A stretch of 64,000 nt of DNA from Flagellatimonas centrodinii (GTDB lineage: Bacteria; Pseudomonadota; Gammaproteobacteria; Nevskiales; Nevskiaceae). The stretch spans positions 1,488,001 through 1,552,000 of the forward strand of contig NZ_CP092104.1 of assembly GCF_016918765.2 (NCBI RefSeq). The letters are read 5' to 3'. Position numbers and translations under genes: made by a program. Below, in pieces: positions 986 to 18,205 of the stretch (positions are counted from its first letter, which is position 1; each line of letters starts with the position of its first letter). The notes under the pieces were generated by a model. The model was not told the origin of the DNA. It did no database searches and worked only from the letters and a program-made list of their open reading frames with translations.

Positions 986-1023
986 GTCGCATAATGAAAC
1001 ATGAAACTCCGAATATGAAACAT
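971..1023. promoter_or_regulatory. Putative PrpR operator: repeated ATGAAACAT boxes
   Basis: ATGAAACAT occurs at 994-1002 and again at 1015-1023, 21 bp apart (two helical turns). A partial copy (ATGAAACTC, 1001-1009) lies between them and an inverted TGTTTCAC lies at 971-978. They sit upstream of the sigma-54 promoter, as expected for an enhancer-binding protein. That PrpR binds here is inferred from position and repetition. Confidence 0.55.
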
Positions 1024-1082
1024 CGGCGACGCCAGTGCCTCCCAAGTAACTGATTTTAAGAGCTATCGATCAGAGCAATGGC

Positions 1083-1099
1083 TTGGCACGAGACTTGGT
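1083..1099 (+). promoter_or_regulatory. Sigma-54 (-24/-12) promoter of prpBC
   Basis: TTGGCACGAGACTTGGT matches the consensus YTGGCACG-N4-TTGCW with correct GG to G-position spacing. The only deviation is G instead of C in the -12 GC. It ends 32 bases before the prpB ATG, which fits transcription starting near 1110. The adjacent prpR gene encodes a GAFTGA-type activator. Confidence 0.75.
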
Positions 1100-1130
1100 A
1101 TAACAGCGTCCCCCCAACTGGAAGAGCCTG

Positions 1131-2024
1131 ATGACCACTCCCGCTTCCGCCGGCGCCCGGTTTCGCGCCGCCCTTGCCGAAGAGCAACCGCTGCAGGTGA
1201 TCGGCGCCATCAATGCCAACCACGCCCTGCTGGCCAAACGGGCCGGCTTCAAGGCGATCTACCTCTCCGGCGGCGGTGTCGCGGCGGGTTCGCTGGGGCT
1301 GCCGGATCTCGGCATCAGCGGACTCGAAGATGTCCTGATCGACGTCCGCCGCATTTCGGATGTCTGCGATACCCCGCTGTTGGTGGATGTGGACACCGGC
1401 TTCGGCAGCTCGGCTTTCAATGTGGCGCGTACGGTGAAAAGCCTGATCAAGGCTGGCGCGGGGGCCATGCATATCGAAGATCAGGTGGGCGCCAAGCGTT
1501 GCGGCCATCGCCCCAACAAGGAGATCGTCAGCCAGGGCGAGATGGTGGACCGGGTGCGTGCGGCGGTGGATGCCCGCACCGACGACCAGTTCGTCATCAT
1601 GGCCCGCACCGATGCGTTGGCGGTGGAAGGCCTGGAAAAAGCGGTGGAACGGGCGGTGGCCTGCGTCGAAGCGGGTGCCGACATGATCTTCCCCGAAGCC
1701 ATCACCAGCCTGGAGATGTACCGCCAGTTTGCCGACGCGGTGAAGGTGCCGATTCTCGCCAACATCACCGAATTCGGTGCCACGCCGCTGTTCACCGTTG
1801 ACGAGCTGCGGGATGCCGGTTGCGGCCTGGTGCTGTACCCGCTGAGCGCCTTCCGCGCCATGAACAAGGCGGCCGAGAACGTGTACAACGCGGTGCGCCG
1901 CGACGGGACACAGAAGAACGTGGTCGATACCATGCAGACCCGCATGGAGCTGTACGACGTGATCGGCTACCACGATTACGAGCAAAAGCTGGACGCGCTG
2001 TTCGCCCAGGCGAAGCAGAAATAA
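1131..2024 (+). CDS. prpB: 2-Methylisocitrate lyase PrpB
   Basis: A 297-residue protein of the isocitrate lyase/PEP mutase family, the usual length for PrpB. It cleaves 2-methylisocitrate to pyruvate and succinate, the last step of the cytosolic 2-methylcitrate cycle. The metal-binding stretch VDVDTGFG lies near residue 87, and the catalytic-cysteine loop KRCGHRPNK near residue 122 is diagnostic for methylisocitrate/isocitrate lyases. GGAAG about 7 bases upstream of ATG 1131 is a plausible ribosome site. prpC follows after 20 bases, so the two are an operon driven by the sigma-54 promoter. Confidence 0.96.
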
Positions 2025-2044
2025 GACCCCGCAGGAGAGTACTG

Positions 2045-3199
2045 ATGAGCGATACCCCCACCCCCGGTTTCAAGCCGAAGAAATCCGTTGCGTTGAGCGG
2101 CACCGCCGCCGGCAACACCGCCCTGTGCACTGTTGGTCGCACCGGCAACGACCTGCACTATCGTGGCTACGACATCCTCGATGTCGCCACTACCTGCGAG
2201 TTCGAAGAGATCGCCTATCTGCTGGTCCACGGCAAGCTGCCGACCCGTTCCGAGCTCAAGGGCTACAAGGCCAAGCTGAAGGCCCTGCGCGGTCTGCCCG
2301 CTGCGGTCAAGACGGCGCTGGAACAGCTGCCGCCGTCCGCGCACCCGATGGACGTGATGCGCACCGGCGTCTCGGTGTTGGGCTGTGTGCTGCCGGAAAA
2401 AGATGACCACAATCATCCGGGCGCCCGCGACATCGCTGACAAGCTGATGGCCTCGCTGGGGTCGATGCTGCTGTACTGGTATCACTACAGCCACAACGGC
2501 AACATCATCGACGTCGAGACGGATGACGATTCCATCGGCGGCCACTTCCTGCACCTGCTGCATCAGGAAAAGCCGCGGGATTCCTGGGTCAAGGCCATGC
2601 ACACCTCGCTGGTGCTGTACGCCGAACACGAGTTCAACGCCTCGACTTTCACCTCGCGGGTGGTGGCCGGGACCGGCTCCGACATGTACTCCGCCATCTG
2701 TGGTGGCATCGGCGCCCTGCGTGGCCCCAAGCATGGCGGCGCCAACGAAGTGGCCTTCGAGATCCAGAAGCGCTACGACAACCCCGATGAGGCCGAGGCC
2801 GACATCAAGGCACGGGTGGAGAAGAAGGAAGTGGTCATCGGCTTCGGCCATCCGGTCTACACGGTCAGCGATCCGCGCAACAAGGTGATCAAGGAAGTCG
2901 CCCGCGAGCTGTCGAAGGAAGAGCAGAGCATGAAGATGTTCGACATCGCCGAGCGGCTGGAAACGGTGATGTGGGACATCAAGAAGATGTTCCCCAACCT
3001 CGACTGGTTCAGTGCCGTCAGCTACCACATGATGGGCGTCCCGACAGCCATGTTCACGCCGCTGTTCGTGATTGCGCGCACCGCAGGCTGGAGCGCGCAT
3101 ATCATCGAGCAGCGCATCGACGGCAAGATCATCCGCCCGTCGGCCAACTACACCGGGCCGGAGAACCTCAAGTTCGTGCCGATCGACCAGCGGACGTGA
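2045..3199 (+). CDS. prpC: 2-Methylcitrate synthase PrpC
   Basis: A 384-residue citrate-synthase-fold protein that condenses propionyl-CoA with oxaloacetate to 2-methylcitrate. The start ATG 2045 follows GGAGAG and gives an N-terminus ([16 protein letters not shown]) typical of PrpC. The loop [13 protein letters not shown] near residue 265 carries an active-site His. It is shorter than the ~430-residue hexameric citrate synthase GltA, as expected for PrpC. The usual next genes (prpD or acnD/prpF) are absent; a MerR gene follows instead, so the dehydratase/isomerase steps must be encoded elsewhere. Confidence 0.95.
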
Positions 3200-3336
3200 G
3201 GGCAGCGTCCTGAGTGCCGAGGGGTGAGTGCTGAGTAGCCGCAACGGCGCGCGCTTGCATTGCATCGCAGGTTACAGTGGGCTCCCAGCCATCAGGGCCG
3301 CATAGACGTGCCCGATCACGAGGAGACCGACAGCGC

Positions 3337-4149
3337 ATGCCGCGCCAGCCACTCAAGCCCAGGACGGAGCCGCCGTACCGCATCAAGGACCTGGTCGAAC
3401 AGACCGGGGTGTCACGCGAGGCCATCCGCTTTTACATCAACGAAGGCCTGTTGCCGCCGGCGGAGAAGAGTGCGCGCAACATGGCCTGGTACTCGCAGCA
3501 GCATCTCGACCTGCTGCGGCAGGTGAAGCGGCTGCAGCGTGACCATTTCCTGTCGCTGAAGGCGATCCGCATGGTGCTGGGCGGCGGGCGCGACCCCGAC
3601 GACACCTTCTCGGCCAGCCAGATCGCTTCGCTGCAGCGGATCCGGCAGCGACTCAATGCCACCCAGGGGCGGTTGCCGATGTCGGCGCCGCCGGCGGAAC
3701 TGGCGCGCGATTTCGGGTTGTCACGGCTGGAGCGCAAGGAACTGCGGGACCTCGGGGTGGCGGCATCGGGGGTCGCGACCATCAGCGATGTGGAGATCGT
3801 GCGGCTGTGGATCGCCCTGCGCGATGCCGGTATGGCGCTGGAGCGGGGTTTCAGCCCGCGGGACATCCATTTCGTGCTGGAGGCGGCCCGCCATGTGCTC
3901 GACCACGAGCTGGAGATCTTCCGGGACCGCATGAAGACACTGAGCACCGACGAGCTGATCGCCATCATCGACACCGCCATCCCGGCGGTGAGCAAGCTGT
4001 TCGTGACCATGCACGAACGGGCGGTCTACCAGTTCATTGACGACTATCTTGGCCGTTCCGCACAAGTGAATGGCCGCGGAAGTGATAGCGAAGCGCCTAC
4101 AGACACGGGTAGGCTGGAGGTAGAACAATCCGGACATCCGGGGTCATAG
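3337..4149 (+). CDS. MerR-family transcriptional regulator
   Basis: A 270-residue DNA-binding protein. Residues ~14-80 form a MerR winged helix: YRIKDLVEQTGVSREAIRFY, then a NEGLLPPA wing-type stretch and a dimerisation helix. The long C-terminal part is helical and lacks a cysteine metal-binding loop, so a metal-sensor role is unlikely. ATG 3337 is chosen because AGGAGA lies 10 bases upstream; an in-frame ATG at 3277 is less likely. The gene sits between prpC and the RND exporter, in the same direction, and could control the transport cluster downstream. That link is inference. Confidence 0.85.
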   Translation: MPRQPLKPRTEPPYRIKDLVEQTGVSREAIRFYINEGLLPPAEKSARNMAWYSQQHLDLLRQVKRLQRDHFLSLKAIRMVLGGGRDPDDTFSASQIASLQRIRQRLNATQGRLPMSAPPAELARDFGLSRLERKELRDLGVAASGVATISDVEIVRLWIALRDAGMALERGFSPRDIHFVLEAARHVLDHELEIFRDRMKTLSTDELIAIIDTAIPAVSKLFVTMHERAVYQFIDDYLGRSAQVNGRGSDSEAPTDTGRLEVEQSGHPGS

Positions 4150-4298: not shown

Positions 4299-6890
4299 AT
4301 GCATGATTCGCGAGGCGCATTTGCGCAAGCCTTTGTCCGGCTGACCGAGCCGCTGATTTTCAGTCGGCGTTTTGTCACGCTCGGGTTCATGCTGGTGCTG
4401 ACGGTCATCCTCGGCTGGCAGGCGACCCATCTGAAAATCGATGCCGGGTTCGAGAAGCAGATTCCGCTTCAGCATCCCTACATCCAGATCTACAAGCAGT
4501 ATGAAAAGGAGTTCGGCGGCGCCAACACCACGCTGGTGGCGCTGAGTCAGAACGAGGGGGACATTTACACCCCGGAGTTCATGAAGACGCTACGGGCCCT
4601 CACCGATGCGGTGTACTTCACGCCGGGGATGGATCGCTCGCGGGTCAGCTCCATCTTCACTCCGGACGTGCGGTATCTGGAGGTGGTGGAAGGCGGCTTC
4701 CAGGGCGGCAACGTGGTGCCGGCGGACTTCACGCCGACCGACGCGATGCTGGCGCGGGTGCGTTCCAACGTCGAGAAAGCCGGCATCGTCGGCCGCCTGA
4801 TCGCCAACGACCACAGCGGCGCCATGGTGTTCTCCGAACTGCTGGAGCGCGACCCGGTCACCGGCGAGAAGCTGGACTACATCGAGACCGCGCACCGGCT
4901 GGAGGACATCCGCCGCCGGTTCACCGAAGAAACCCGCTACCAGTACACCCTGAAGGAAGACCTGCCGCCGCTCAAGGCCGGTGATGTCGTTCACACTACC
5001 TACACCGACGAGCGGGGTGTGCTGTTCGACTTCCGCGATATCAGCATTGTGGTGCCCGATCCCGAGGGGCGTGACGAAACCCGCGAGATCTCCGGTTCGA
5101 TGGTCGAGGTGGTGGAAGAGGCCAACCCCGACTACAACCCCAACATCGATATCCACATCATCGGCTTCACCAAGGCGGTCGGTGACATCGCCGACAGCGC
5201 CGTCGAGGTGTTCAGTTACTTCGGGCTGACCGTGTTCCTGGTGTGGATGCTGCTCGCCTGGTATTGCGGCTCGTTCAAGGTCGCGTTTCTGCCGACCGCC
5301 TGCGGCATTCTGGCGGTGGTCTGGGAACTGGGCATGCTGCATCTGTTCGGTTTCGGACTCGACCCGTTTGCCGTGCTCATGCCGTTCATCGTGCTGGCCA
5401 TCAGTACCAGTCACGGCATTCAGATCACCAACTTCTGGCTTAACGAAACCGCCGACCATGGGCTCAATGCCTTCGATGCCGCTGTGGCCACCTACCGGCG
5501 GCTGGTGATCCCCGGCATCTCGGCGTTGGCGACCAATTTCGTCGGCTTCGGCACCATCTTCCTGATTCCCATCGACATCATCCGCGAGATGGCGGCCAAC
5601 GCCATGTTCGGCCTGGTGGCGATCGTGCTCTGCAAGAAGGTGCTGCTGCCGTGTCTGCTGACCTTCGCCAACCTCAAGGACCCGGCCAAGTTCCGCGAGC
5701 ATCAGCACGCGCGCGACGCCAAGCTGGCACCCGTGTGGCGTGGCCTGTCCAACATCACCCGCAAGCCGGTGGCGGCGGTGGTGTTGCTGGCCGGTGCTGC
5801 CCTGTGGGGTGCAGGCCAATGGGTGGCGCAGGACCTGAAGATCGGCGAGCTGCATGACGGTGTGCCCGAGCTGCGCCCCGATGCCCGTTACAACCTCGAC
5901 TCCGCCAAGATCGTCAAAGACTTCGCGATTGGGGTCGACGTGCTCAAGGTGGTTGCTGAAGGCGAGGCCGATGGCTGCATCAACCACGGCATCGTGTCGC
6001 TGATGGACCGGTTCGCCTGGCGCATGGAGAACACCCCCGGCGTGCAGTCGACGCTGTCACTGCCGAAGCTGCAGAAACAGGTGTTCAGCAGTTATTCCGA
6101 GAGCAATCCGAAGTTCAATGCGCTGCCGCGCGAGAGTGGGGCATTGGTGGTGACGGTGCAGCCGTTCCCGAGCTCGACCGGCCTGCTCAACGAAGACTGC
6201 AGCGCGATGCCGGTCTTCATCTTCACCCAGGACCACAAGGCCGAGACCATCGACGTCATCATCGAGGCCATCAACGGCTTCCGCGATGAGCTGCCGGAAG
6301 ATGCACCGGTCACCTTCCAGCTGGCCACCGGCAACGTCGGGGTGATGGCAGCGGTCAACGACGTCATCAAGGACACCGAGCACACCGTGCTGCTCTGGCT
6401 GTTCCTCGGCATCGGCGTCTGCGTGGCGTTGTCGTTCCGCAGTATTGCCGGCTTGATCTGCGTGCTGGTGCCACTGGCATTGGTCCACGTGGTCAGCTAC
6501 GCGGTGATGGTGTATCTGCAGATCGGGGTCAAGTTCTCCAACATTGCGGTCGCCGCCTTCGCCGCCGGGATCGGGGTCGACTACGGCATCTACATCTACA
6601 GCGTGCTCGAAGAAAACGTGCTGCAGAAGCGGATGGCGCTGCGGGAGGCCTACGAAAACACCCTGCACCAGACCGGCAAGGCGGTGATCTTCACCGCGCT
6701 CACGCTGGGCGCCACCGTGTGCACCTGGCTGTTCTCCAACCTGCAGTTCCAGGTTGACATGGGCATTCTGCTGACGCTGATGTTCTTCGCCAACGCGGTC
6801 GCCGCCGCGGTGCTGCTGCCGGCCTTCGCCGCCTTCCTGCTGAAGGTGCCGAAGGACGACAGCGAATCCAAGACGGCAGCGACGGCGTAA
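4299..6890 (+). CDS. MmpL/RND-superfamily exporter
   Basis: An 863-residue inner-membrane protein with the doubled RND architecture: TM1 (about residues 25-42), a large periplasmic loop, a five-helix block (about 305-460), a second TM/loop pair, and a second helix block (about 700-850). It belongs with MmpL/COG1033 'predicted exporters' rather than the ~1030-residue drug pumps. The second half keeps the acidic proton-relay site (GVDYGIYIY, about residue 758). The equivalent place in the first half reads AISTSHGIQ, without an acid. GAGGAGA precedes ATG 4299. DUF1329, DUF1302 and YCF48 genes follow; such clusters are widespread in hydrocarbon- and steroid-degrading proteobacteria. The probable role is moving a hydrophobic molecule, substrate unknown. 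Confidence 0.88.
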   Translation: MHDSRGAFAQAFVRLTEPLIFSRRFVTLGFMLVLTVILGWQATHLKIDAGFEKQIPLQHPYIQIYKQYEKEFGGANTTLVALSQNEGDIYTPEFMKTLRALTDAVYFTPGMDRSRVSSIFTPDVRYLEVVEGGFQGGNVVPADFTPTDAMLARVRSNVEKAGIVGRLIANDHSGAMVFSELLERDPVTGEKLDYIETAHRLEDIRRRFTEETRYQYTLKEDLPPLKAGDVVHTTYTDERGVLFDFRDISIVVPDPEGRDETREISGSMVEVVEEANPDYNPNIDIHIIGFTKAVGDIADSAVEVFSYFGLTVFLVWMLLAWYCGSFKVAFLPTACGILAVVWELGMLHLFGFGLDPFAVLMPFIVLAISTSHGIQITNFWLNETADHGLNAFDAAVATYRRLVIPGISALATNFVGFGTIFLIPIDIIREMAANAMFGLVAIVLCKKVLLPCLLTFANLKDPAKFREHQHARDAKLAPVWRGLSNITRKPVAAVVLLAGAALWGAGQWVAQDLKIGELHDGVPELRPDARYNLDSAKIVKDFAIGVDVLKVVAEGEADGCINHGIVSLMDRFAWRMENTPGVQSTLSLPKLQKQVFSSYSESNPKFNALPRESGALVVTVQPFPSSTGLLNEDCSAMPVFIFTQDHKAETIDVIIEAINGFRDELPEDAPVTFQLATGNVGVMAAVNDVIKDTEHTVLLWLFLGIGVCVALSFRSIAGLICVLVPLALVHVVSYAVMVYLQIGVKFSNIAVAAFAAGIGVDYGIYIYSVLEENVLQKRMALREAYENTLHQTGKAVIFTALTLGATVCTWLFSNLQFQVDMGILLTLMFFANAVAAAVLLPAFAAFLLKVPKDDSESKTAATA

Positions 6891-6899
6891 GCTTTGAAA

Positions 6900-6926
6900 G
6901 GGGGTATGCCGGCAACGGCTGCCCCC
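6900..6926 (+). promoter_or_regulatory. Hairpin between exporter and DUF1329 gene
   Basis: GGGGG-tat-GCCG-GCAA-CGGC-tg-CCCCC can fold into an interrupted GC-rich stem with a GCAA tetraloop, ten bases after the exporter stop. No T-run follows directly (ATTTTT comes 11 bases later), so it may slow transcription or protect mRNA ends rather than terminate. Confidence 0.5.
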
Positions 6927-6999
6927 GATAGTTGCGATTTTTCAGACGGGAGCCGGCACGACACAGCCAGGTTTCGGTCCCACAAGGAGGATACGTGTC

Positions 7000-8361
7000 A
7001 TGAAACGATCAATGCTGAAGATGACCGCGGTTGCGGCCATGGTGATGGCGTCGAGTGCCACCTGGGCTGCGGTATCGGCCGAGGAGGCCGCCAAGCTGGG
7101 CAAGGAGCTGACCCCGGTCGGCGCCGAGCGTGCCGGCAACGCCGACGGCACCATCCCCGAATGGACCCCCGCCAAACAGCGTGGTGAGCTCAAGGGCATC
7201 TATCCCAACAACCCTGAGATTGACGGCGAATCGCCGATCTTCACCATCACCTCGAAGAACATGTCGGAGTACGCCGGCAAGCTCACCGAAGGTCACAAGG
7301 AACTGCTGACGCGCTTCCCGCAGACCTACAAGATGAACGTCTACAAGTCGCATCGCACGGTCAACTTCCCGCAGACCGTGCTCGACGAGACGATGAAGAA
7401 TGCGACCCGGACCACTCTGGAAGGGGTCGACAACCCGCAGGGCGGCCAGATTGGCTTCCCCTTCCCGATTCCGAAATCGGGAGCCGAGCCGATCTGGAAC
7501 CACCGCGTGAAGTGGCGTGGCGAAGATGTGCGTCGCTACAACAACCAGATGATCGTGCAGCAGGATGGCAACTTCTCGCTGACGAAGATCGTCGAAGACG
7601 TCACCTTCTTCTACGCCAACACCAAAGCGGAAAATCCGCCGGCGCTGAAGCCGGGCACCGACTTCCTGCGCTATCTGTCGGAAACCATCGCGCCGCCGCG
7701 CATTGCCGGGACCTACATCCTGGTGCATGAGAAGGCCGGTTTCGGGACCGACGGTCGTGCCGCCTGGTTGTATGCGCCGGCACTCAAGCGCATTCGCCGC
7801 GCACCGGCGGTGTGCTGCGACAACCCGTATGAAGGCACCGATGGTCATCAGTTCTACGACCAGGTCGACATGTACAACGGGGTGCTCGAGCGCTTTACCT
7901 GGAAGCTGGTGGGCAAGCGCGAAATGTACATTCCGTACAACTCCAATCGCATGGCCAGCCCGGAAACCAAGTACGACGATATCGCCGCGCCGAACCACGT
8001 CAATCCCGACCTGCCGCGCTATGAACTGCATCGCGTCTGGGTGGTCGAGGCTGAAAACAAGCCGGATCAGCGTCACACCTTCAAGACCCGTCGCTTCTAC
8101 ATCGACGAAGACAGCTGGAACGTGGTCGCCATCGACAACTACGACCAGCAGGGCAAGCTGATGCAGTTCCAGGAAGGGAACCTGGTGACCTACTACAACA
8201 TCCTGGCCACCACCACCCAGCCGGAAGTGATCTACCACCTGAACTCGGGCCGCTACTTCGTGACCGCCATGGGCAACGAAGATCAGCCGTACGACAACAC
8301 GGTGAGCTACCCCTCAAACTTCTTTGAAGCCAACACGATTCAGACCCGCGCTTCCAAGTAG
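7000..8361 (+). CDS. DUF1329 periplasmic protein (LolA/LolB-like fold family)
   Basis: A 453-residue secreted protein with a Sec signal peptide (MKRSMLK basic start, hydrophobic core, cleavage near ATWA-AVSA). The body matches DUF1329, including AAKLGKELTPVGAERAGNADG early and the WLYAPALKRIRRAP stretch near residue 255. That stretch is shared with outer-membrane lipoprotein-sorting folds. Vicinal cysteines (VCCDNPYEGTDG, about residue 270) stand out. AAGGAGG lies 8 bases before ATG 7000, the strongest ribosome site in the cluster. It lies between the inner-membrane exporter and the DUF1302 outer-membrane gene, fitting a periplasmic carrier of a hydrophobic cargo. The carrier role is inference; the family assignment is firm. 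Confidence 0.88.
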   Translation: MKRSMLKMTAVAAMVMASSATWAAVSAEEAAKLGKELTPVGAERAGNADGTIPEWTPAKQRGELKGIYPNNPEIDGESPIFTITSKNMSEYAGKLTEGHKELLTRFPQTYKMNVYKSHRTVNFPQTVLDETMKNATRTTLEGVDNPQGGQIGFPFPIPKSGAEPIWNHRVKWRGEDVRRYNNQMIVQQDGNFSLTKIVEDVTFFYANTKAENPPALKPGTDFLRYLSETIAPPRIAGTYILVHEKAGFGTDGRAAWLYAPALKRIRRAPAVCCDNPYEGTDGHQFYDQVDMYNGVLERFTWKLVGKREMYIPYNSNRMASPETKYDDIAAPNHVNPDLPRYELHRVWVVEAENKPDQRHTFKTRRFYIDEDSWNVVAIDNYDQQGKLMQFQEGNLVTYYNILATTTQPEVIYHLNSGRYFVTAMGNEDQPYDNTVSYPSNFFEANTIQTRASK

Positions 8362-8368
8362 TTTCGGT

Positions 8369-8405
8369 GACCCCTGGCCTCGCCTTCGGGCGAGTGCCAG
8401 GGGTC
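8369..8405 (+). terminator. Intrinsic terminator after DUF1329 gene
   Basis: A perfect 16-bp stem in two parts (GACCCCTGGC/GCCAGGGGTC and CTCGCC/GGCGAG) closes a TTCG tetraloop, with one bulged T, and a T-rich stretch follows (8406-8428). It begins 8 bases after the stop and lies inside the cluster, so expression of the DUF1302 gene may be lower or use its own promoter. Confidence 0.85.
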
Positions 8406-8439
8406 TCTTCTTGATCCCTTTTTCTTTCCAACGCGGGAC

Positions 8440-10965
8440 ATGATGCAGTCACTTTCCTTCATGACAGGCCGTCTGCGCGTCGTCCGCCTGTTGCTAGCAA
8501 GCGCACTGCTCGGTGCCAGTGGCGCCAGCCCGGCGCTCGAATTCAATATGGACGTTCTCGGTGAGAACGTGGGTGTTGTGCTCAACAACACCGTCACCTT
8601 CGGCGCTTCCTGGCGCCTGCAGGATCAGGCCAGTGACCTGATCAGCAAGGGAGCGATCAACCCGGAGCTATGCTCGGGTCAGTTCCAGACCTGTCAGGGT
8701 CTGTTTCGCAACCAGACGTTTCCGGCGGCGCGTCTCGCCGCCGCACCCGGCCAGGGGTCGATCAACTTCGACGATGGCAACCTGAACTATGACCGCGGCG
8801 ACATCACCCAGATGCCGTTCAAGTACAGCCATGATTTTCGCTTCAAGTGGAAAAACTACGGCATCTTCGTTCGCGGTATCGGCATCTACGATCATCACAA
8901 TTACGATGATTTCGAGACCTTCAGCCCCAACAAGATCACCTCGGCCAACGTCGGTCAGGTGGGGCGCACCGGTGATGCTGGCGTTTCCAACCGCTACTTC
9001 GACCAGGTATTCGGCCCTGGCGGTGTGGTGCGGGATATTCGCAACCGTGACGAAGCCAAAGAGATCGGCCTGCGGTACGACCTGCTGGATGCCAACTTCT
9101 TCGCCAACATTCCGCTTGATGACATCCGCACCCTGACCCTGCGGGTCGGGCGCCAGACGGTGAACTGGGGACAGAGCTCGGTGGCGGTGATCAACAGCGT
9201 CAATCAGGCGCAGCCGGTCAATACCAACTCGCTGTATCGTCTCGGCTTCGGCCTGCTCGAAGAGCTGTTCGTGCCGGTGAACATGGTGCGTGCCAGTACC
9301 GAAATCTTCGGCGGCATCACCATGGAGGCCTACTATCAGCTGGAGTGGCAGCCGATCGAGATTCCCACCGCCGGCAGCTTCATGTCGTTTGTCGATATCG
9401 GCACCGACAACCAGCGCGAGACCGTCAACCTCGCGTTCGGCCAGGCGCCGGATGACCCGGAGTTTCTCGGCAGCCCGCTGGACAACCCGCTGGCGCTGAT
9501 CACCGGCACCTCGCTTACCGCCGAGCGGCTGCCGGATCGTGATGCCCGCGACTCCGGCCAGTACGGCGTGTCGTTCAAGTACTACGCCGACAACATCAAC
9601 AACGGCACCGAGTTCGGCGCCTATTTCATGAACTACCACTCGAAGCTGCCGTATGTCAGCTTCTTCTCCACCGATGCCAGTTGCGCGCGTGCGGCCGGCA
9701 ACGCCATGGGGATGGATGCACGCAATACGAGCGAGCTTTTCGCGGCTTGCCCGAATTTGCCGACCTCGCAGCTCGACTTGCTTGGTGGCCAGGTGCCGCT
9801 GCTGGCCGATATCGGATCGTTGGCGTTGCAGCGCCCAGGCGTGTTGAGCGAATTCGGCCTGATCGATGGCAACCTGCCGGGCCTGCTGAACCTGCTGCTG
9901 CCGCGGCCGGGTGAGCCAGTCTCCAGCGTGGTGCCGTTCGACAGCGCCAAGCTGCAGTTGGAATACCCCGAAGACCTGAAGATGTTCGGAGTCGACTTCA
10001 CCACTACCTTCGGCGAGTACTCGTTCCAGGGGGAGCTGTCATACCGACCCAACGTGCCGCTGCAGGTGGCGTTGATCGACGTCGCCTTCTCGGCGTTCGG
10101 GCCGGTGTTGGGCAGTTGCCACAACGAAGAGGTGGGTTGTTTCGGCTCATCGGCCGGCCTCGGCTTCGATGAAACCGGCGACTTCGTGCTCTACGAGGGT
10201 AACGATTTCACCGATGCCGACGGCAATAACCCCTACGCCGACACCATCAACCTGGTGGTGGGCGCGGTGCCGGGCTCGGCACGCTCGTTCCCGAGCTTCC
10301 TCATTCCCTATCGCGGCGGTGCGGACGCCATCGGCAACAATGCGCCCAACAGCTACATCCAGGGCTGGATTCCGGGCAAGGTGGTGCAGTACAACCTCGG
10401 CGCCACGCGGGTGCTGGGCCCCAACGAAAACTGGATCGGCGCCGACCAGGTGATCCTGATCTACGAAGTTGCTGCCACCCACGTCACCAACATGCCGGAC
10501 TTCGACGAGCTGCAGATCGAAGGGCCGCTGACCGCCTACACCCACGCCAGCGCCGGCGCTGACGGCAGTGGTGCCGATGGCTCCCGGCTGGCGTGCTCGA
10601 CCAATCCCTCGTGCTCGATCGGTCCCGACGGTCTTCGCTTCAATCCCTATCAGACCCCCCGCAGTGCCTACGCCGATGCCTTCTCCTGGGGGTATCGCAT
10701 CGTCGGTCGTATCGGCTACGAGTCGGTGCTGCCGGGGATCAGTATCCAGCCGCTGTTCATCTGGGCGCATGACATCAACGGCAACTCGCCCGGGCCGGCC
10801 GGCAATTTCGTCGAGGGACGCAAGGCGCTCAACCTGCTGCTGGAAACCCGCTACGGGCCCTCTTATGCGTTCACCGTTGCCTACAACACCTTCTTTGGTG
10901 GCGGCAGCAACAACCTGTATCGCGACCGTGACAATCTCGGTTTCTTCTTCAAGTACCAGTTCTGA
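8440..10965 (+). CDS. DUF1302 outer-membrane beta-barrel protein (first paralogue)
   Basis: An 841-residue exported protein with a signal peptide (VRLLLASALLGASGASPAL, cleavage near residue 30-33). Its DUF1302 body has amphipathic beta-strands and ends in an aromatic residue (FFFKYQF), the outer-membrane barrel signature read by BAM. Conserved landmarks are TVTFGASWRLQDQ near the N-terminus and WGQSSVAVINSVNQAQPVN in the middle. Eight cysteines occur as four close pairs. The gene at 12205 encodes a paralogue similar over the full length except one segment (about residues 414-497 here). Probable role: outer-membrane channel or receptor of the transport cluster. The start could be either of two adjacent ATGs (8440/8443). 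Confidence 0.88.
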   Translation: MMQSLSFMTGRLRVVRLLLASALLGASGASPALEFNMDVLGENVGVVLNNTVTFGASWRLQDQASDLISKGAINPELCSGQFQTCQGLFRNQTFPAARLAAAPGQGSINFDDGNLNYDRGDITQMPFKYSHDFRFKWKNYGIFVRGIGIYDHHNYDDFETFSPNKITSANVGQVGRTGDAGVSNRYFDQVFGPGGVVRDIRNRDEAKEIGLRYDLLDANFFANIPLDDIRTLTLRVGRQTVNWGQSSVAVINSVNQAQPVNTNSLYRLGFGLLEELFVPVNMVRASTEIFGGITMEAYYQLEWQPIEIPTAGSFMSFVDIGTDNQRETVNLAFGQAPDDPEFLGSPLDNPLALITGTSLTAERLPDRDARDSGQYGVSFKYYADNINNGTEFGAYFMNYHSKLPYVSFFSTDASCARAAGNAMGMDARNTSELFAACPNLPTSQLDLLGGQVPLLADIGSLALQRPGVLSEFGLIDGNLPGLLNLLLPRPGEPVSSVVPFDSAKLQLEYPEDLKMFGVDFTTTFGEYSFQGELSYRPNVPLQVALIDVAFSAFGPVLGSCHNEEVGCFGSSAGLGFDETGDFVLYEGNDFTDADGNNPYADTINLVVGAVPGSARSFPSFLIPYRGGADAIGNNAPNSYIQGWIPGKVVQYNLGATRVLGPNENWIGADQVILIYEVAATHVTNMPDFDELQIEGPLTAYTHASAGADGSGADGSRLACSTNPSCSIGPDGLRFNPYQTPRSAYADAFSWGYRIVGRIGYESVLPGISIQPLFIWAHDINGNSPGPAGNFVEGRKALNLLLETRYGPSYAFTVAYNTFFGGGSNNLYRDRDNLGFFFKYQF

Positions 10966-10989
10966 CGGCCGCCCCTGCGAGAGTTCACG

Positions 10990-12042
10990 ATGATCACGAA
11001 CCCGATGCTCAGATCCTTCCGCCTCCCCTTGCTGCCGGCCGTGATGGTCGGTCTGGCCCTGTCGCCGACGGCGTGGGCGCAGGACGACACCATCACACCG
11101 AAAGTCGCGGAGATCGCACCCCGATCAGCGCAGGCGCTGCTCACGGCCATTGCAGTGGCAGGCGATCATCTGGTGGCCGTGGGGTCGCGGGGTCATATCC
11201 TGGTGGCCGAGGACGGCAGCGAGCGCTGGAAGCAGGTCGAAGTGCCGGTCCGCAGTCTGCTTACCGAAGTGCAGTTCGCCAACGCCACCACCGGCTGGGC
11301 AGTCGGCCATGACGCCACCATCCTCAAGACCGAGGATGGCGGTCAGACCTGGGCACTGCAGAACTTCGATGCCACGCAGGAGCCGCTGCTGTCCCTGTAT
11401 GCCGTTGATGCTCAGCACGTCTACGCCTTCGGCGCTTTCGGGCTGATGCTGGAAACGCACGACGGCGGCAGCACATGGGATGCCAAAACCTCCGAAGTGG
11501 CAGACGAGGGTGTCCACCTCAACTCGGTGACGGCACTGGCCGATGGCAGTCTGTTGCTGGCCGGCGAAATGGGCATGCTGGCGCTTTCGCAAGATCAGGG
11601 CGAGACCTGGCAGCGGTTGCCGTCGCCCTATGAGAGTTCGTTCTTCGCCGCCGCGCCACATGGCGAAAAAGGCGCAGTAGTGGCCGGGCTCCGCGGCAAC
11701 CTGTATCTGACCGATGACGTACTGGGGGGGGAGTGGACGGAAGTGGCCACCGGCTCGGTGCAGTCAATCTTCAGCATCGTCCCCGAGGCCGATGGCAGCT
11801 TCGTACTGGTCGGCCTCAACGCCACCCTGCAGCGCCTCGGTGCCGACGGCAGTGTCACCCCGTTGTCGCCACAGCGGCTGAAAGCCGCCGCCGCCCAGGA
11901 CATCGCGCTGCCCTACGTTGCCCTGCAGAACAATGGCGGCAACAACACCGAAGCCGGCGCCTATGCCGACGCGGTGGGCCTGGCCAACGGGGTGCTGGTG
12001 ACCGTGGGTGACACCGGCATTCGTCGCTGGCAGTTGAACTGA
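10990..12042 (+). CDS. YCF48/BNR-repeat exported beta-propeller protein
   Basis: A 350-residue protein with a Sec signal peptide ending near SPTAWAQ-DD (about residue 31). The body has repeated propeller blades of the photosystem II stability factor (YCF48) type: WAVGHDATILKTEDGG, then FGLMLETHDGGSTWD and LSQDQGETWQRL, each with the Asp-box-like DGG/DQGETW pattern. It lies 24 bases after the first DUF1302 gene and before the second. YCF48-like proteins recur next to DUF1302/DUF1329/RND genes. A periplasmic scaffold or assembly factor for the barrels is the likeliest role; no catalytic motif is visible. Confidence 0.85.
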   Translation: MITNPMLRSFRLPLLPAVMVGLALSPTAWAQDDTITPKVAEIAPRSAQALLTAIAVAGDHLVAVGSRGHILVAEDGSERWKQVEVPVRSLLTEVQFANATTGWAVGHDATILKTEDGGQTWALQNFDATQEPLLSLYAVDAQHVYAFGAFGLMLETHDGGSTWDAKTSEVADEGVHLNSVTALADGSLLLAGEMGMLALSQDQGETWQRLPSPYESSFFAAAPHGEKGAVVAGLRGNLYLTDDVLGGEWTEVATGSVQSIFSIVPEADGSFVLVGLNATLQRLGADGSVTPLSPQRLKAAAAQDIALPYVALQNNGGNNTEAGAYADAVGLANGVLVTVGDTGIRRWQLN

Positions 12043-12204
12043 AGCCGCGGGCTGCAGGCGTTTTTATGAACCGTTTTGAATACCGTCGGCAGGTTTGCGG
12101 GGTGACAGCGATTCGTTGACACTGCAGACCGTCGACATCCGGCCAAGATGCACCCCGATTCGAAAGAGGGTGGACTGGCCGTCAGTGACCATGAGGAGAG
12201 CATG

Positions 12205-14724
12205 ATGAGCAAGTTCGCGGAAACCCGGGTGGTGCGTGGTGTCCTGAAGTCTGCCGTGGGGGCCGTTCTGGTCGCCGGCAGTTTCAGCGCACACGCCTTG
12301 CAGTACCAGTTCAATCTGTTCGGCGAGAACGTCGACGCGGTGCTCAACAACACCGTGACCTTCGGCGCCTCGTGGCGCCTGCAGGATCAGGCCTCTGACC
12401 TGATCGGTAAAAGCAACCAGGATCCGGATCTGTGTCGTGGCGTGTTCCAGAGCTGCCAGGGGCTGCACCGACTGCAGAACTTCCCGGCCGAGCGGCTTGC
12501 CAATGCGCCGGGGCAGGGGTCGATCAACTTCGACGACGGCAACCTCAACTACGACCGCGGCGACATCACCCAGATGCCGCTCAAGTACAGCCACGATTTC
12601 CGCTTCAAGTGGAAGAACTACGGCATCTTCATTCGCGGCATCGGCATCTACGATCATCACAACTACGATGATTTCGAGACCTTCAGCCCCAACAAGATCA
12701 CCGCCGAGAATGCGGACGACGTGATCATCACCGGTGATGACCGCATCTCCAACCGCTACTTCGACGGGGTCTATCAGTCGGGCGGGGTGGTCCGCGACAT
12801 CCGCAGCCAGGAAGAAGCCGACGAAATCGGTCTGCGCTATGACCTGCTGGATGCCAACTTCTTCGCCAGCATTCCGCTGGATGACATTCGCTCGCTGACC
12901 CTGCGGATCGGCCGTCAGACCGTGAACTGGGGCCAGAGCACGGTGGCGGTGGTCAACAGCGTCAACCAGGCGCAACCGGTCAACGCCAACTCGCTGTACC
13001 GCCTCGGATTCGGTCTGCTCGAAGAGCTCTTCGTGCCGGTGAACATGGTGCGTGCCAGCACCGAGATCTTCGCCGGCATCACCATGGAGGCCTACTACCA
13101 GCTGGAATGGCAGCCGATCGAGATTCCCACCGCCGGCAGCTTCATGTCCTTCGTCGACATCGGCACTGACAACCAGCGGGACACCGTCAACCTCGCGTTC
13201 GGTGGTGCCGCCGATGACCCCGACTTCGTCGGCGCGCCGCTGGACAACCCGCTGACCGCGATCACCTACACCACGCTGTCGGCGCAGCGCCTGCCCGACC
13301 GCGATGCACGGGACTCCGGCCAGTACGGTGTGTCGTTCAAGTACTACGCGGAAAACATCAACAACGGCACCGAGTTTGGCGCCTACTTCATGAACTACCA
13401 CTCGAAGCTGCCGTATGTGAGCTTCTTCTCGACGGACCTCAGCTGCGCGCGGGTAGCCGGTGCGAACGGTCTGCCAGCCACCAATACCAGCGAGCTGCTG
13501 AACCGCTGCCCGAACATGCCGATCGCCGTCAGCTCATTGCGCGGACAGACCAACCTGTTGCTGGATGTGGTGAACCTGAGCGCGCAGCGGCCGGGGATTG
13601 CCCTCACCGAACTGGGGCTGGTTGATGGCAATCCGCTGAGCCTGGCCAACCTCTTGATTCCGCTGCCCAACCAACCCGAATCGAGTGTGGTCCCGTTCGA
13701 CTCGGCAAAGCTGTTGATCGAGTACCCCGAAGATCTGAAGATGTTCGGCGCCGACTTCACCACCACCTTTGGCGAGTACTCGTTTCAGGGCGAGGTGTCG
13801 TACCGGCCCAACGTGCCGCTGCAGGTGGCACTGGTGGATGTCGCGTTTGCCGCCTTCGGGCCCACTTTGACGAGCTGTCACAATGAGGAGGTCAACTGTG
13901 CGGGTTCCAGCGCCGGTCTCGGCTTCAACGAGGATGGCGATTATGTGCTCTATGACGGTAACGACTTCACAGATGCCGACGGCAACAATCCCTATGCCGA
14001 TACCGTCAATCTGGTTATCGGGGCCGCACCCGGCTCGGCACGTTCCTTCCCCAGCTTCCTCATTCCCTATCGCTACGGCGCCGACGCCATCGGCAACAAC
14101 GCGCCCAACAGCTACATTCAGGGCTGGATTCCCGGGCGCGTGGCGCAGTACAACCTCGGTGCCACCCGGGTGCTGGGGCTGTCGGAGAACTGGATCGGCG
14201 CCGACCAGGTGATTCTGCTGTACGAACTGGCCGCCACCCATGTGCTCAACATGCCGGACTTCGATGAGTTGCAGATCGAAGGCCCGCTGACCGCCTACAC
14301 CCATGCCAGCGCCGGTGCCGATGGCAGCGGTGCCGATGGGTCGAAGCTGGCCTGCTCCACCAACCCCAGCTGCACCGTCGGCCCCGATGGTCTGCGATTC
14401 AATCCGTATCAGACCCCGCGCAGCGCCTATGCCGACGCCTTCTCCTGGGGATATCGCATCGTCGGCCGCATCGGCTACGAGTCGGTACTTCCGGGCATCA
14501 GCATCCAGCCGCTGTTCATCTGGGCGCACGACATCAACGGCAACTCGCCAGGGCCCGCCGGCAACTTCGTCGAGGGCCGCAAGAGCCTCAACCTGCTGCT
14601 GGAGACCCGCTACGGGCCGTCGGTTGCCTTCACCGTGTCGTACAACACCTTCTTCGGCGGCGGCAGCAACAACCTGTACCGCGACCGCGACAATATCGGC
14701 GCCTTCTTCAAGTATCAGTTTTAG
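12205..14724 (+). CDS. DUF1302 outer-membrane beta-barrel protein (second paralogue)
   Basis: An 839-residue exported protein starting MSKFAETRV. ATG 12205 is preferred because AGGAG lies 6 bases upstream; ATG 12202 is too close to it and ATG 12148 lacks a site. The signal peptide ends near FSAHA-LQY. Architecture, the four cysteine pairs and the C-terminal aromatic (FFKYQF) match the paralogue at 8440. The proteins are near-identical in long blocks but diverge in the segment at residues ~412-493. A terminator follows, so this closes the cluster. Both paralogues are kept in one operon-like array, suggesting two channels with different external loops. Confidence 0.88.
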   Translation: MSKFAETRVVRGVLKSAVGAVLVAGSFSAHALQYQFNLFGENVDAVLNNTVTFGASWRLQDQASDLIGKSNQDPDLCRGVFQSCQGLHRLQNFPAERLANAPGQGSINFDDGNLNYDRGDITQMPLKYSHDFRFKWKNYGIFIRGIGIYDHHNYDDFETFSPNKITAENADDVIITGDDRISNRYFDGVYQSGGVVRDIRSQEEADEIGLRYDLLDANFFASIPLDDIRSLTLRIGRQTVNWGQSTVAVVNSVNQAQPVNANSLYRLGFGLLEELFVPVNMVRASTEIFAGITMEAYYQLEWQPIEIPTAGSFMSFVDIGTDNQRDTVNLAFGGAADDPDFVGAPLDNPLTAITYTTLSAQRLPDRDARDSGQYGVSFKYYAENINNGTEFGAYFMNYHSKLPYVSFFSTDLSCARVAGANGLPATNTSELLNRCPNMPIAVSSLRGQTNLLLDVVNLSAQRPGIALTELGLVDGNPLSLANLLIPLPNQPESSVVPFDSAKLLIEYPEDLKMFGADFTTTFGEYSFQGEVSYRPNVPLQVALVDVAFAAFGPTLTSCHNEEVNCAGSSAGLGFNEDGDYVLYDGNDFTDADGNNPYADTVNLVIGAAPGSARSFPSFLIPYRYGADAIGNNAPNSYIQGWIPGRVAQYNLGATRVLGLSENWIGADQVILLYELAATHVLNMPDFDELQIEGPLTAYTHASAGADGSGADGSKLACSTNPSCTVGPDGLRFNPYQTPRSAYADAFSWGYRIVGRIGYESVLPGISIQPLFIWAHDINGNSPGPAGNFVEGRKSLNLLLETRYGPSVAFTVSYNTFFGGGSNNLYRDRDNIGAFFKYQF

Positions 14725-14744: not shown

Positions 14745-14771
14745 TGCCCCGCTCCGGCGGGGCATTTTTTT
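14745..14771 (+). terminator. Intrinsic terminator ending the transport cluster
   Basis: TGCCCCGC/GCGGGGCA stem with a TCCG loop followed by seven T (14765-14771), 20 bases after the second DUF1302 stop. Confidence 0.92.
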
Positions 14772-14919: not shown

Positions 14920-15648
14920 ATGGGAACGCGGGAGCGCCGCCAGCGGGAATTCGGGGAACGCGAGCAGCAGTTCCTCGCGGCTGCGCGTGAGCTGATCGCT
15001 GAAAGCGGTCTGTTGAGCCTGCAGATGTCGAAGGTCGCCGAACGCTGCGAATACGCGGTCGGCACGCTGTATCAGCACTTCACCTCGAAAGAGGACCTGC
15101 TGCTGGGCGTGCTGATCGAGGACGTTCGTGAGCATACCGCGCTGTTCCAGCGGGTGGCCGACTGGCAGGCGCCGACGCGGGATCGCATGTTCGCCATCGG
15201 GGTGGCAGACATGATCTTCGTCAACCGTCATCCGGACTTCTTCCGCCTCTCGCAATATTCCCTGTGCGAGGTGGTCTGGAAGGCGGCATCGGCCGAGCGT
15301 CGGCAGGACTTTCTCGATATCACCAAGCCGATTGGTGAAGTGGTGGTGGCGATTGTCGAGGACGCGGTGGCCCAGGGGGACCTGACCCTGACGCACCAGA
15401 CACCACAGGAGCTGGCCGCCGGTATGTGGGCCCTCTGCGCCGGCTTCCACCAGTTGGTTCACGCCGAAGGGGTGCTCGACGACTTTTCGGTCCGTGCCCC
15501 GTACCGGGCGATGTCGCAGCACATTCAGCACCTGCTCAATGGCGTCGGCTGGCGCCCACTGCAGGCCGACACGTCGCCCGCCGGGCTGGACGTGTTGATC
15601 AAACGCATTTGCAAAGAGGTTTTCGATGAATCGATCTGTGCAGGTTAA
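14920..15648 (+). CDS. TetR-family repressor of the adjacent efflux operon
   Basis: A 242-residue regulator. Residues ~15-65 form the TetR HTH (FLAAARELIAESGLL, then MSKVAERCEYAVGTLYQHF and SKEDLL); the rest is a helical ligand-binding domain. Its 3' end overlaps the start of the tolC-like gene by 23 bases, so it is transcribed and probably translationally coupled with the pump. Autoregulation through the 195-bp upstream region is likely but no clean palindrome is seen. AcrR-like repressors of RND pumps respond to the pump's substrates. Confidence 0.88.
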   Translation: MGTRERRQREFGEREQQFLAAARELIAESGLLSLQMSKVAERCEYAVGTLYQHFTSKEDLLLGVLIEDVREHTALFQRVADWQAPTRDRMFAIGVADMIFVNRHPDFFRLSQYSLCEVVWKAASAERRQDFLDITKPIGEVVVAIVEDAVAQGDLTLTHQTPQELAAGMWALCAGFHQLVHAEGVLDDFSVRAPYRAMSQHIQHLLNGVGWRPLQADTSPAGLDVLIKRICKEVFDESICAG

Positions 15649-16984
15649 GCACGCAACCGCGCTTCTTGTGCTGTCTCTGGTCGCACTTCCGGCCAGCGCC
15701 GGAATGTTGATTTCCGAGGCCCTGAGCCGCGCGGTCGAAGCGGATCCGCAGTTCGCCGCCGCCGCTGCCACGCAGCGCGCCAACCGCGAGCTGGGCGAGC
15801 AGGAACGCGCCGCCCTGCGCCCGAGCGTGGCCCTGCGTGCCAACGCCGACTACGCCTATACCGACGCCGACTTCGCCTTTGGCGCCTCGGACGAGGACTA
15901 TGCGGCATGGTCCGCCGTGCTGGAAGTCCGGCAGCCACTGTTGCGTCTGGACTGGGGCGCACGCCTTGACCGTGCCGAGGCACGGGATGCACTGGCCGAA
16001 GTCGAGTACCGCGCCGCCGAAATCGACTTCATCGCGCGGGTGTCGGAGCGCTATCTCAACGCTTTGCTGGCCGAAGACCAGTTGCGACAGACCGAGGCCG
16101 AGGCTCGCGCGATTCGCGAGTCGCTCGACGATACCCAGAAGCGGTATGACGTCGAGCTGGTGCCCGGCACCGATCTCAAGGAAGCGCAGGCGCGTGATGA
16201 CCTGATCCAGGCGCAATTGATCGCGGCGCGCGGTCAGGTGGAGGAAACCCGCGACGCCTTGGAAGAGATCACCGGTTACGCCCGTGGCCCGCTGCCGCGC
16301 TTGCGCGAGACGCTGGACCTGCCGCCGCTGACCGACAGTGATGTTGATACCTGGTACCGCACGGCGCAGGACAGCAACGTCGATCTACTGCGGGCGCGCC
16401 TGCAGACCGAACTGGCCCGCACCAACCGCCAGAGCCGCAAGGCCGAAGCGCTGCCGAGCCTCGATGTGGTGGCCAGCGCCGGCCGCAATGACTCGCAGGA
16501 CTACACCCTCGGACAACTGCAGGACGAGGCCCGTATCGGCGTTGAATTGACGGTGCCGCTCTATGCCGGCGGCATCAACCACAGCCGGGTACGCGAGGCT
16601 GAAGCCCGCATTGACGAAGCCGACCTGGCCCTGACCCGGGCGCAGCGCGAGGTGCGTAGTGCCATTCGCAAAGCCTACCGGGACGTGGTGTCGGCACTGA
16701 CGGCCGACAAGGCCTATTCGCAGGTGCTGGCATCGGCCGAAGCCGCCGAGCGGGCGGTGCAGGCCGGCTACGATGCCGGCACCCGCACCATCGCTGATGT
16801 GCTGGATGCCCAGAGTCGGGTGGTGCAGGCACAGCGCGACCGCAACGAAGTCCGCTACGACCTCTTGATCAAGGCGCTGATCCTGCAGGCCACCGCCGGC
16901 ACGCTCAGTGTCGACATGGTGGCCGCCATGGACCGCCTGTTCGAGCAGCCCGACGCCGCCGAACCACCCGCCGCAGCGCCGTGA
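15626..16984 (+). CDS. TolC-family outer membrane efflux protein
   Basis: A 452-residue exported protein with a signal peptide (LLVLSLVALPASA-GM). It has two OEP halves of long coiled-coil helices: ALSRAVEADPQF near the start and the second-repeat motif VREAEARIDEADLALTRAQREV near residue 330. The C-terminal part has the usual GYDAGTRTIADVLDAQ element. It forms the trimeric outer-membrane duct of a tripartite pump. Its ATG 15626 lies inside the TetR gene, with GAGG upstream. The adaptor gene follows after 43 bases. Confidence 0.93.
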   Translation: MNRSVQVKHATALLVLSLVALPASAGMLISEALSRAVEADPQFAAAAATQRANRELGEQERAALRPSVALRANADYAYTDADFAFGASDEDYAAWSAVLEVRQPLLRLDWGARLDRAEARDALAEVEYRAAEIDFIARVSERYLNALLAEDQLRQTEAEARAIRESLDDTQKRYDVELVPGTDLKEAQARDDLIQAQLIAARGQVEETRDALEEITGYARGPLPRLRETLDLPPLTDSDVDTWYRTAQDSNVDLLRARLQTELARTNRQSRKAEALPSLDVVASAGRNDSQDYTLGQLQDEARIGVELTVPLYAGGINHSRVREAEARIDEADLALTRAQREVRSAIRKAYRDVVSALTADKAYSQVLASAEAAERAVQAGYDAGTRTIADVLDAQSRVVQAQRDRNEVRYDLLIKALILQATAGTLSVDMVAAMDRLFEQPDAAEPPAAAP

Positions 16985-17027
16985 AGTTCCGCTCTCCTTT
17001 TTTCGCATTTCGCAGCAGAGACCCGTC

Positions 17028-18164
17028 ATGACCAAACGTATGATCATCATGCTCATCCTCGCCGGTGTCGTTTTCGGCGCCGTGTTCGGCATGAAGTGGA
17101 TCGGCAACAAGATGATGGTGGACTACATCGAGACCATGCCCATCCCGCCGGTCACGATCTCCACCACCACCGGCAAATCGTTCACCTGGGAAAATCAGGT
17201 GGAGGCGATCGGCAATCTGGTGCCGGTACAGGGTGCGGACATCAGCACCGATGTCGGCGGCATCATCACCGAGCTGCATTTCGAATCCGGCGATCGGGTC
17301 GAAAAGGGTGCACCGCTGGTGACCCTCGACAGCGATACCGAACGGGGTGAACTGCGGCGGCTGCAGGCGCAGGCCGAACTGGCCAAGCTCAACCTTGAGC
17401 GCCGCCAGAAGTTGTACAAACTGGAAGCCATTTCGAAGTCGGATCTGGATGCGGTCCAGGCGGAAGCCGATGCGGCACAGGCGGCCATGCAGTCGCAGGC
17501 GGCGCGCATCGCGCAGAAGGCCATCCGCGCGCCGTTTGCCGGCCAGTTGGGCATCCGCCAGGTCAGCACCGGCCAGTTTGTCGCGGCGGGCACCCCGCTG
17601 GTGACGCTGCAATCGCTGGACCCGATCGACGTCGACTTCTCGCTGCCCGAGCAGTACCTGGCGGATATCAGCGCCGGCCTGCCGGTGACCGTGACGGTGG
17701 AAGCCTACCCGGGCGACGTGTTCGAAGGCACCGTGCTGGCAGTGGAGCCGCGGGTCGATGAGGCCACCCGCAACGTCCGCCTGCGGGCGCGCCTGGCCAA
17801 TGCCGATCTCAAGCTGCGGGCCGGCCAGTTCGGGCAGGTACAGCTGCGGCTGCCGGGTGAGCAGAACGTGCTGGCGGTGCCGCGTACCGCTATCAACTAC
17901 AGCTCTTACGGCGCGTCCGTGTTTGTCGTCACCGGCGACCGCGAAGCCGCGCAGCAGGAAGGTGGTGAGCCGCTCACGGTGACCCAGCGCTTTGTCCGTC
18001 TGGGCCCGGCGCGGGGCGATTTCGTCGCCGTCACCGAAGGGCTGGAGGCCGACGATGAAGTCGCTTCCAGTGGCCTGCTGAAGCTGCGCAACGACCAGCC
18101 GGTGGTCATCAACAACGAGATCCAGCCCGACGCGGAACTCGCCCCGACCCCCGCCAACACCTGA
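17028..18164 (+). CDS. RND efflux periplasmic adaptor (membrane fusion protein)
   Basis: A 378-residue HlyD/AcrA-like adaptor. An N-terminal membrane anchor (residues 4-22) lacks a lipobox, so it is a signal-anchor type. The lipoyl half-motif GDRVEKGAPLVTLDSD is near residue 90, a short coiled-coil hairpin at ~105-165, and the second lipoyl half and beta-barrel (RAPFAGQLGIRQVSTGQFV) follow. ATG 17028 is chosen because it begins the anchor; upstream in-frame sequence overlaps the previous gene. It links the TolC duct to the RND permease encoded next. Confidence 0.93.
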   Translation: MTKRMIIMLILAGVVFGAVFGMKWIGNKMMVDYIETMPIPPVTISTTTGKSFTWENQVEAIGNLVPVQGADISTDVGGIITELHFESGDRVEKGAPLVTLDSDTERGELRRLQAQAELAKLNLERRQKLYKLEAISKSDLDAVQAEADAAQAAMQSQAARIAQKAIRAPFAGQLGIRQVSTGQFVAAGTPLVTLQSLDPIDVDFSLPEQYLADISAGLPVTVTVEAYPGDVFEGTVLAVEPRVDEATRNVRLRARLANADLKLRAGQFGQVQLRLPGEQNVLAVPRTAINYSSYGASVFVVTGDREAAQQEGGEPLTVTQRFVRLGPARGDFVAVTEGLEADDEVASSGLLKLRNDQPVVINNEIQPDAELAPTPANT

Positions 18165-18205
18165 TGCCGCGCCCGCGCGGCACGCCCTGATACGCAAGGT
18201 CTCCC

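Follow-up and report, generated by a model that had tools for sequence, protein, structure and literature searches.

The five genes at positions 4299-14724 of the window, by which we mean the whole 64,000-nucleotide stretch of Flagellatimonas centrodinii DNA that was analysed, form a cassette that, judged by gene content and homology, belongs with the HAE3 RND systems of the AmeABCD type, a kind already described, if in few studies. We lean towards the view that it represents this type in an alkane-specialised clade, where it would serve as a proton-driven shuttle for alkanes between the outer and the inner membrane. A trans-envelope route for a hydrophobic substrate, as proposed in the first-pass annotation, remains the best reading of these genes. 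All five open reading frames named there are present on the plus strand and score above the curated cut-offs for the Pfam families in question, and the MerR gene in front and the good intrinsic terminator behind are where they had been placed (Table 1).

Table 1. Features of the cassette and its borders, in window positions.
Feature	Positions	Strand	Evidence
MerR-family regulator, exact start uncertain	3277-4149	+	Pfam MerR_1, E 2.2e-19
AmeD-like HAE3/MMPL RND inner-membrane transporter, 863 aa	4299-6890	+	Pfam MMPL, E 2.4e-16
AmeB-like DUF1329 periplasmic carrier (predicted), 453 aa	7000-8361	+	Pfam DUF1329, E 8.4e-121
Intercistronic hairpin, followed by a pyrimidine-rich stretch	8369-8405	+	fold z -4.9
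AmeA-like DUF1302 outer-membrane barrel a, 841 aa	8440-10965	+	Pfam DUF1302, E 5.5e-152
AmeC-like YCF48/BNR beta-propeller, 350 aa	10990-12042	+	Pfam PSII_BNR, E 3.4e-24
DUF1302 outer-membrane barrel b, 840 aa	12202-14724 (ORF opens 12148)	+	Pfam, E 5.1e-153
Intrinsic terminator, stem then T run	14745-14764	+	TGCCCCGCTCCGGCGGGGCA-TTTTTTT

Signal sequences, judged by eye, begin both the DUF1329 protein and the YCF48 protein, the latter with cleavage near AWA-QDD; the YCF48 protein also matches solved Ycf48 proteins at E 1e-17, and barrel a ends in ...KYQF. Read from its first possible start, the frame of barrel b would encode 858 aa, but the later start is probably the correct one, since the site GAGGAGAG stands before ATGATGAGC. 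The MerR gene is a possible regulator of the cassette, and homologues of its product with 36-47% identity adjoin three other cassettes of the same type (L180, L183 and L188). Window 2-3199, upstream of the MerR gene, holds prpR, which the window start truncates, together with prpB and prpC. A link to propionate metabolism through prpB-prpC was considered and set aside: the cassettes of the relatives examined do not have these genes alongside, and the prp neighbourhood is therefore treated as local. Downstream, at 14920-21301, genes for a TetR protein, a TolC-type OEP, an RND adaptor and an HAE1 permease make up a complete multidrug-type efflux pump, with the adaptor, OEP and permease genes spanning 15626-21301.

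The strong hairpin between the DUF1329 gene and the first DUF1302 gene, a stretch that folds at -37.2 kcal/mol, implies that the cassette may not be one uniform transcript. Nearly all of the related loci tested also have a strong hairpin in the same gap, with an unrelated sequence; compared with 77 other gaps from the same loci, this gap folds more stably (p 0.0004). The conservation of the hairpin points to differential expression inside the cassette that may itself be conserved.

The AmeABCD system of Castellaniella defragrans consists of AmeA (DUF1302), AmeB (DUF1329), AmeC (COG4447) and the HAE3 RND protein AmeD (PMC6394551). The window shares with it the same four protein families, adjacent and on one strand, the HAE3 type of RND protein and a hydrocarbon-degrading host (PMC6394551). 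The two differ in gene order: AmeABCD runs A-B-C-D, whereas in the window an HAE3/MMPL-type RND gene is followed by DUF1329, DUF1302, YCF48 and a further DUF1302 gene (D-B-A-C-A in Ame letters). Because gene content and homology are those of AmeABCD, we treat the order in the window as a clade variant. In addition, the barrels of the window have about 840 aa as opposed to 605 in AmeABCD, the window has a second barrel and an insert of about 70 aa in the RND protein, and its relatives are linked to alkane hydroxylases whereas AmeABCD is linked to monoterpene genes.

Several other described systems combine related parts. The Pseudomonas putida set PP_0765/PP_0766/PP_2018/PP_2019 resembles the window in having a DUF1302 protein, a DUF1329 protein, a periplasmic protein and an RND transporter, but is divided over two loci; a contact map predicted for these homologues shows contacts between the components that range from weak to strong (PMC10866462). 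The COG4447-COG1033-PF07044-DUF1302 operons of Betaproteobacteria that are regulated by AphR, AphS or AphT likewise place the same four families beside a catabolic pathway, although the substrates are aromatic and the regulators are different (PMC6449761). The benzene "nanopod" cluster of ORM2a, which contains DUF1329, YCF48, MMPL and a porin-like protein and is highly expressed on the hydrocarbon, comes from a benzene-degrading culture and differs in belonging to Desulfobacterota and in including a universal stress protein; its authors commit to neither direction of transport (PMC13101534). In Thalassolituus, TOL_3187/TOL_3188 join MMPL and LolA-like domains with a porin and are induced on n-C28, but here the MMPL and LolA-like parts lie in one protein, and YCF48 or DUF1302 are not reported (PMC6304351). 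The earlier statement that no settled mechanism joins these families had overlooked AmeABCD together with the P. putida, aromatic-regulon and benzene clusters. Two other kinds of transporter find no counterpart in the Pfam matches of the five proteins, among which there is neither an HlyD/RND_mfp adaptor nor a TolC-type channel, as in an HAE1 tripartite pump, and neither an MCE domain nor an ABC transporter, as regards Mla/MCE lipid transport.

The association of the families was expected to exceed chance, and it does. We drew 185 unselected genomes evenly across the class and set score thresholds by inspection, at the gap in the score lists. Strong matches to the RND protein occurred in 27 genomes, full-length DUF1329 in 29 and YCF48 in 26; all 27 genomes with the RND protein also have full-length DUF1329, and 26 of them have YCF48, while YCF48 of this type without the RND protein was found in none of the 185 (Fisher about 1e-30, with related genomes not being independent). 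The genes also adjoin: 30 of 32 YCF48 matches lie less than 2 kb from an RND gene, and the remaining two have the order of the window, at a distance of about 4 kb.

In the RND phylogeny the window groups with Sinimarinibacterium, Fontimonas, Solimonas, G025 and Hydrocarboniphaga, and its RND gene shares a supported group with those from cassettes of canonical order; AmeD of C. defragrans is absent from this tree, and the placements of some long branches that it joins (L017, L018 and L075) were not used. The named proteins most similar to the RND protein come from Sinimarinibacterium flocculans (82%), Fontimonas thermophila (80%) and Solimonas variicoloris (76%). Most members of the clade, including Fontimonas, Solimonas and Sinimarinibacterium, have the order RND-DUF1329-DUF1302-YCF48, without the last DUF1302 gene of the window, and Hydrocarboniphaga has only RND-YCF48 at this locus; in most other bacteria the order is DUF1302-DUF1329-YCF48-RND. 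The clade to which the window belongs, a group of Nevskiales, has a gene order of its own. Residues S371-H372 in TM4 and D761-Y762 in TM10 of the RND protein form a motif whose histidine is kept in 105 and whose aspartate is kept in all of the 109 aligned proteins, and the other RND proteins of the window's genome that have no YCF48 carry S-D or S-Y in TM4. The pairs S-H and D-Y mark the family in this alignment. The insert, at residues ~212-280, occurs in the window's clade and in a few other Nevskiales groups and is missing in most homologues.

The link to alkane hydroxylases was found in a sample of 61 genomes of the order. We counted as window-type those RND proteins that match over their full length at 57% identity or more, a definition that also includes a subclade whose genes run DUF1302-DUF1329-RND-YCF48. 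At 12 of 33 window-type loci an AlkB gene precedes the RND gene on the same strand at a distance of no more than 4.3 kb, and in ten of them of no more than 413 bp, as against none of the 85 other AmeD-type RND copies in the same genomes. At the other 21 loci of the clade there is no AlkB within 5 kb. One of the 12 AlkB-linked loci (L171) comes from a congener of F. centrodinii. Fontimonas and Sinimarinibacterium have, immediately ahead of the RND gene, a gene for AlkB fused to rubredoxin, accompanied by a divergent AraC gene; a close homologue of this AlkB is 8F6T, the structure of Fontimonas AlkB-AlkG. The possibility that the cassette-side AlkB of Fontimonas is the 8F6T enzyme itself was rejected. 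Since its alignment to 8F6T is gapped and scores lower than identity would give, it is probably a paralogue. Genes for a CYP153-type P450 and a ferredoxin flank other copies of the system (L060, L173 and L201). AlkB is the first enzyme of alkane degradation, and its position beside the cassette in close relatives points to oil hydrocarbons as the substrate.

In the window itself the cassette adjoins prpBC and the MerR gene, not AlkB, which, like the lack of AlkB near those 21 loci, counts against the alkane reading. The window's genome does have an intact AraC-AlkB-rubredoxin locus (1471162-1473719), 18.6 kb upstream of the RND gene. Its AlkB-rubredoxin reads through 494 aa, and the suspicion that it is a pseudogene was dropped once the supposed stop proved to be the normal end of the gene; two CYP153 genes are located elsewhere in the genome. 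The suggested steroid substrate is not borne out, the neighbours in the clade being alkane hydroxylases: among the annotated loci no steroid-specific neighbours were found, and the hits to models with steroid names were weak and fell in large enzyme families. To our knowledge the link between this cassette and AlkB is undescribed; we found no account of it in open-licence papers.

Searches of the 3.6 Mb genome that contains the window returned 16 DUF1329 matches, 14 DUF1302 matches, five YCF48 genes and several MMPL-type RND genes, with all five YCF48 genes sitting in loci that hold an MMPL gene. Another copy of the system (L022) is flanked by acyl-CoA dehydrogenase, MaoC and thiolase-like genes. 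A divergent copy of the gene set (L017, 1192251-1198634 of G000:C1) lies beside genes for a Rieske ring-hydroxylating dioxygenase, GST and FAA-hydrolase, and a second one (L018, 3251192-3259736) has two DUF1329 genes. A Pseudomonas-like YCF48-RND pair at 1126-1130 kb belongs to a different clade of the RND tree. Since the copies adjoin different catabolic genes, this suggests that one type of transporter was recruited to several oily substrates. At a further locus (L010, 2784711-2787556) two DUF1329 genes overlap head to tail, with no RND or YCF48 gene nearby.

The predicted structures agree with the folds expected for the carrier and the barrels. The model of the DUF1329 protein (pLDDT 92.7) shows a LolA-superfamily fold, as the lipoprotein-sorting-like fold claimed for it implied: residues 157-451, the C-terminal two thirds, match LolA3 (9tp6, Z 21.4) and the DUF1329 crystal structure 4z48 (Z 19.2), and the match to classical LolA (Z 8-8.5) and to LolB is weaker. 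A LolA-type fold, as modelled, says nothing on lipoprotein carriage. The DUF1302 protein of barrel a, described as an outer-membrane barrel, is modelled as a porin-type barrel of about 18 strands (pLDDT 82.5) with long loops on one side, of which loops 545-640 and 705-731 have low confidence. It matches OccK/OprD porins with Z about 21 over about 300 residues at 7-11% identity, so that in this model the likeness to OprD/Occ porins is one of shared fold only.

The two DUF1302 proteins of the window are 81-83% identical to each other and form a pair that excludes all relatives, with full tree support. Judged by this tree, the second is a lineage-specific duplicate and not an unrelated barrel. 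Identity between barrels a and b is 92% across the strands and falls to 64% in the longest surface loop (residues 400-512), where they differ most. The layout DUF1302-YCF48-DUF1302 recurs in two further genomes, G221 and G211 (L175 and L176), in each of which the two barrels are again each other's sisters. The paired barrels would reflect either repeated duplication or one old duplication homogenised by gene conversion.

The analysis shows the gene content, the conserved adjacency, the modelled folds, the motif and the AlkB linkage of the clade; for the substrate, the roles of the parts, the proton coupling and the direction of transport we infer the following. The oily substrate would cross the outer membrane by way of the DUF1302 barrel or barrels, the DUF1329 protein would carry it across the periplasm in a putative LolA-type cavity, and the YCF48 propeller may dock this carrier onto the RND protein. 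The RND protein would exchange the substrate with the inner membrane, driven by the proton gradient, with the histidine of TM4 and the Asp-Tyr pair of TM10 as the putative proton relay. The inner membrane is where AlkB takes up alkanes laterally, and the net flow would be toward AlkB.

We favour net import toward AlkB over export by a modest margin, as a matter of judgement and not as a result, because of what growth and induction experiments showed with substrates of low toxicity and because of the route by which alkanes enter AlkB. All four genes of the P. putida set are needed for growth on Tween 20 (PMC10866462), the MMPL and LolA-like protein of Thalassolituus is up 42-fold on n-C28 (PMC6304351), and deletion of a DUF1329 gene impairs growth of Delftia on phenanthrene, as cited in PMC13101534. 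All three substrates stand out for low solubility more than for toxicity. The alkane entry tunnel of AlkB lies in its membrane domain (PMC10113152). The full version of this reading, a complete proton-driven alkane importer that leads from the porin to the periplasmic carrier, through an inward-working RND protein and on to AlkB, with a second, loop-altered barrel in some species, we regard as rather doubtful.

The same chain could also run outward, as a tolerance exporter that clears excess alkane, alkanol or another lipophilic toxicant from the inner membrane, and we take this to be a real possibility, if short of likely. RND pumps are mostly exporters, a precedent that also weighs against alkane import, and the sole deletion study read its system as one: without AmeABCD, tolerance to high limonene went down and accumulation of Nile Red went up (PMC6394551). 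The authors who described the aromatic regulons also proposed a role in coping with solvent stress (PMC6449761). However, the difference in Nile Red came from cells treated with CCCP, in which a proton-driven pump should idle, and the effects observed with Tween 20, n-C28 and phenanthrene, all compounds of low toxicity, concern growth or induction. The window, moreover, already has the separate HAE1 pump with its adaptor and TolC-type protein adjacent.

A role in lipid or outer-membrane biogenesis, in which the RND protein would move an endogenous lipid (hopanoid, wax ester) outward like HpnN/MmpL or help barrel placement, appears quite improbable. The hopanoid transporter HpnN (PDB 5khn) is the best solved relative of the RND protein by sequence and shares its HAE3-type fold, and authors have given a related porin/MMPL pair such a role. 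According to PMC6394551, HpnN works without partner genes. Its motif, however, is V-D-F in TM4 and V-A-F in TM10, a pattern that the alignment did not find in TM4 and TM10 of the window's protein. Against biogenesis there is also the fact that genomes hold several copies, whose catabolic neighbours differ from one copy to the next (acyl-CoA genes, Rieske dioxygenase, AlkB). That the genes are chance neighbours and form no functional unit would fit the internal hairpin and the gaps of 78-160 bases between some of them, but we give this practically no credence; it is refuted by the adjacency, which most of about 130 gammaproteobacterial loci preserve and which occurs in Alphaproteobacteria too.

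The passage of alkanes and other very insoluble hydrocarbons through the bacterial envelope is poorly understood, and few parts have been characterised (AlkL, FadL-like proteins and AupAB). As a defined set of four components tied to AlkB by gene order, the cassette is a direct target for work on alkane uptake. Its function would give roles to two Pfam families of unknown function, and would test whether an RND protein can work inward.
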